Source: Nitrospinota bacterium (lineage in GTDB: Bacteria; Tectomicrobia; Entotheonellia; J063). From it: a DNA stretch of 11,045 bases. The stretch lies in assembly GCA_003696125.1 (NCBI GenBank), contig RFHZ01000060.1, forward strand, positions 1 to 11,045, given 5' to 3'. Positions 8,376 to 8,633 of the stretch are shown here, in pieces. Positions within the stretch are counted from its first letter, which is position 1; the number at the start of each line of letters is the position of its first letter. The notes below the pieces were generated by a model, which had not been told where the DNA came from, searched no databases, and saw only the letters and a program-made list of their open reading frames with translations. Both the position numbers and the translations under genes were made by a program.

Positions 8376-8633
8376 GTGATTCGGGTGTTGATCGTGGATG
8401 ATTCTGCTATTGTCCGCAAGGTGCTGACAGAGGAGCTTTCCAAATACGAGGACATCGAAGTGGTAGGCAGTGCCATCGACCCGTACGTGGCACGGGACAA
8501 GATCGTGGCCCTGCGACCCGATGTGATCACCCTGGATGTGGAAATGCCCCGCATGGATGGACTCTCCTTCCTGGCCAAGCTGATGAAGCACTATCCCTTA
8601 CCGGTAGTGATCGTGAGCTCGCTTACCCCCTAA
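8376..8633 (+). CDS. cheB: CheB, N-terminal receiver fragment (gene frameshifted)
   Basis: GTG start with AAGGAG (8362-8367) eight bases upstream. The 85 residues are the front part of the CheB receiver: D8-D9, phospho-acceptor D54 in [16 protein letters not shown], and S81 in VVIVSSLTP. The frame then hits TAA at 8631-8633. The missing last strand and helix of the receiver, with the conserved lysine (CKPG, codon 8689-8691), are read in the next frame. Removing one C from the CCCCC run at 8626-8630 joins the two halves as [18 protein letters not shown], giving a 346-residue CheB of normal length. As read here this is a truncated receiver that should not fold or signal normally; a sequencing error or recoding are the alternatives to a real mutation. 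Confidence 0.85.
8626..8633 (+). other. Frameshift site in cheB (CCC CCT AA / ccc taa)
   Basis: The zero frame reads ACC CCC TAA; the frame of the methylesterase reads CCC CCT AAA. A +1 shift of the ribosome from CCC to CCT, just before the stop, would restore full CheB. CCC-U followed by a stop codon resembles known +1-slippery contexts, but I see no strong stimulatory AGGAGG close upstream. A homopolymer error in the assembly would look identical. Confidence 0.75.

Follow-up and report, generated by a model that had tools for sequence, protein, structure and literature searches.

Does the stop codon that interrupts cheB at this locus belong to a regulatory mechanism, or does it mark a single surplus base in an otherwise normal gene? 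CheB consists of a receiver domain and a methylesterase domain and exerts feedback control on receptor methylation. In the window (the whole stretch of 11,045 nucleotides that was analyzed, which is one whole contig of the source genome), its gene is spread over two reading frames that adjoin at a short run of Cs. We consider it very likely, with a probability of roughly 0.93, that this is an ordinary cheB of a che operon and that the single extra base at its C run is unprogrammed. Gene and one-base break are both ordinary, and there is no evidence for a mechanism at the break.

The broken cheB and its operon

The operon has the order cheW-cheR-cheD-cheY-cheX-cheB, and its features are listed in Table 1. 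Directly 5' of cheW, positions 4799-5434 encode a small stand-alone secreted sensor-like protein, whose dCache/PDC match is weak and below the cut-off. The cheY and cheX genes overlap by 53 bases (7878-7930), and a clear Shine-Dalgarno sequence for cheX, AGGAGG, lies inside cheY. This junction was considered as a second frameshift candidate in the window and rejected, because a similar overlap is found in one of the relatives (L038, described below); the overlap is therefore conserved and not a defect.

Table 1. Genes of the che operon and position of the frame break in cheB
Feature	Position	Strand	Evidence and remarks
cheW, intact	5482..6084	+	PF01584, E 1.5e-40
cheR, intact	6095..6922	+	PF01739, E 2.4e-64
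cheD, intact	7003..7485	+	PF03975, E 1.7e-27
cheY-like response regulator, intact	7502..7930	+	PF00072, E 3.2e-24; overlaps cheX-like gene
cheX-like phosphatase, intact	7878..8342	+	PF13690, E 2e-11
cheB 5' piece	8376..8633	+	GTG to TAA, 85 aa, ends SSLTP; truncated receiver domain
Frame-break site, CCCCC then TAA	8626..8633	+	Sequence reading; frame open in 108/108 relatives readable there
cheB 3' piece, adjoining frame	8632..9417	+	261 aa plus stop (9415-9417); receiver remainder, linker, CheB methylesterase domain

The sequence-only reading had described the break as five Cs at 8626-8630 followed by a TAA at 8631-8633 that ends the receiver frame, with the adjoining frame carrying cheB on without loss. 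Both statements were confirmed. Its prediction that deletion of one C would give a cheB of 346 residues was likewise borne out, as the two pieces sum to 85 + 261 = 346. The last stop upstream in the downstream frame is a TGA at 8614-8616. Bounded by this codon and by the TAA at 8631, the frame change must lie within 14 bases, and the homology comparison puts it at the C run inside this interval. Because homology is clear over both frames, the gene can be identified as a cheB with a broken frame: the 3' piece holds the CheB catalytic domain, and the receiver is divided between the two frames.

The break had also been placed between the receiver and the catalytic domain, and this turned out to be wrong. 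The 5' piece matches Response_reg (PF00072, E = 3.1e-16) only over positions 1-78 of the 111 in the profile, and the match of the 3' piece to CheB_methylest (PF01339, E = 3e-66), which covers the full profile (1-174 of 174), begins 71 residues into that piece. The break therefore falls inside the receiver, after beta-4. Receiver domains need their beta-5 lysine for phosphorylation chemistry. This conserved lysine, in the motif CKPG, falls 3' of the break and is absent from the 85-residue product, which is therefore an incomplete receiver rather than a shorter form that works. With the beta-5 lysine and the final third of the domain fold missing, the notion that this product functions as a short receiver does not stand up.

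Relatives, conservation and the state of the genome bin

As relatives we took every locus from a relatives search and from GTDB species genomes whose homology crosses the site. This gave 108 loci with 32-72% protein identity, none from the same genus or family, and one genome counted twice (L005 and L038). The cheB frame is uninterrupted at the site in all 108, with T-P-K/E/Q or similar residues, and an in-frame CCC-TAA was found there in none of these relatives, which are 32-72% identical and include no same-genus or same-family genome. The sequence-only reading had held that an open frame in close relatives would mark the break as a sequencing artefact. The result does speak against a biological feature, but the relatives are not close.

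Neither piece of cheB shows visible decay, judged by conserved columns (those at least 90% conserved among homologs) and by GC content at the codon positions, which resembles that of the neighboring genes. In the homolog alignment the receiver piece retains 26 of 26 highly conserved columns and the 3' piece 54 of 55, the conserved catalytic and receiver positions of CheB included. This is comparable to intact homologs, which lose a median of 1 and a mean of 2.1 such columns. Since nearly all conserved residues are kept in both pieces, the break is either very young or absent from the cell.

The source genome comprises 4.18 Mb, is split into 990 mostly short contigs, has a completeness of 94.8% and a contamination of 7.98%, and looks like a metagenome bin. 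There is no sign that the contig of the window is a contaminant, its GC content of 57.5% being mid-range among the readable contigs of the bin (52.7-61.8%). Other broken genes were sought by blastx against the ORFs of a class-level relative and the che loci, in 48 readable contigs of about 3 kb or more that amount to 312 kb with the window. Homology covered about 85 kb of this, of which about 78 kb lay outside the window, and no other convincing split gene was found in that homology-covered coding sequence of about 78 kb. Two weak candidates proved to be false positives once their frames were read: L175 is an antisense match of 28-29% identity, and L119 is a histidine kinase gene followed by a response regulator gene that had been compared with a fused hybrid kinase. 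The assembly is therefore not generally rich in indels. The window contains some 41 runs of at least five Cs or Gs, and the 48 contigs (312 kb) contain 703 isolated C5 or G5 runs, 236 runs of at least six and 42 occurrences of CCCTAA. Neither the C5 run nor CCCTAA is special by sequence in this genome.

Origin of the extra base

We infer that a lone indel of one base in a gene of this kind reflects either an error in the consensus or a mutation of recent date. In the first case the draft consensus would be wrong, in the second the sampled strain would carry a very recent frameshift, and the surplus C of the C5 run would be the cause of the break in both. There is about an even chance that the cell's cheB is uninterrupted and that the fifth C arose from sequencing or from strain variants merged in the metagenome. 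The indel is a lone one in a homopolymer, both pieces are fully conserved, no relative shares the break, and the bin is fragmented and partly contaminated, all of which favor such an error; the absence of further convincing frameshifts in the surveyed coding sequence and the modest length of a C5 run count against it. Because the assembly is not indel-rich, it is nearly as likely, with a chance somewhat short of even, that the frameshift is real and arose very recently, inactivating this cheB in the sampled strain or a part of the population. Mutations by homopolymer slippage are common, the surveyed part of the assembly is otherwise clean, and a second cheB is present on contig C82 as an intact open frame of 391 aa, which may or may not compensate. 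However, neither the two pieces nor the rest of the operon shows signs of decay, so a real mutation would have to be very young. If the break does exist in the cell, the protein would end at residue 85, its receiver incomplete, and the gene would yield no CheB; only one of two cheB copies would then be off in one strain. Since nothing has visibly decayed and bins of this type are mixed, the error stays slightly ahead of the mutation.

Two further readings would give the break a function. A phase-variable C tract that switches cheB on and off might be suggested by a homopolymer in the early part of the gene, but five Cs are short for contingency loci, the tract is not conserved in relatives, and isolated runs of this length are abundant in the genome, so we regard such a switch as very improbable. 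Programmed +1 frameshifting at CCC-UAA, yielding both the 85-residue receiver and full CheB, could draw on the capacity of CCC-U for a +1 slip in principle, on the shifted cheB frame beginning at the site, and on a +1 site in use in prfB of the same genome. Against it, the site is conserved in no relative (no same-genus genome being among them), the short product is the incomplete receiver described above, and no stimulatory element was found at the cheB site, neither upstream, where prfB has one, nor downstream, where the RNA is no more structured than shuffled sequence (z = 0.95). In addition, m1G37 methylation normally keeps tRNA-Pro from slipping into the +1 frame at proline codons (PMC8643618, PMC5372744). 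The missing conservation, the missing prfB-like element, the lack of structure and this methylation together make programmed shifting highly improbable, and a literature search found no paper linking programmed frameshifting with cheB. We give equally little credence to a +1 recoding at CCC-UAA that would be specific to this uncultured lineage and would adjust its CheB level. Of the three cases listed by the sequence-only reading, consensus error and recent loss thus survive, and phase variation and programmed frameshifting lack support. As a caution, a one-base break in a draft metagenome bin gives no ground for reading recoding into a gene.

Comparison with prfB and with the nearest relative

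The autoregulatory +1 frameshift of prfB (RF2) is a known system that the cheB break resembles in one respect: in both, shifting by +1 at the stop would bring the reading frame back. In the same genome, prfB (L261, contig C922, reverse strand, about 2155-2084) has a classic RF2 +1 site, CGGGGATATCTTTGAC, after a leader frame of 23 codons. The leader ends in CGG GGA TAT CTT TGA C, with the Shine-Dalgarno-like CGGGGA, and the RF2 frame resumes in +1. Where prfB thus reads CGGGGATAT CTT TGA C, with a UGA-C stop, cheB has no Shine-Dalgarno-like spacer element, a UAA-A stop and no conservation of the site.

The nearest relative, Candidatus Tectomicrobia bacterium KatS3mg131 (L038/L005), has a cheB that is 72% identical over the whole protein. 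It shares with the window the order cheR-cheD-cheY-cheX-cheB and the same kind of cheY/cheX overlap. In contrast to the window, its cheB is uninterrupted, with SSLTPENGE at the place of the window's CCC TAA.
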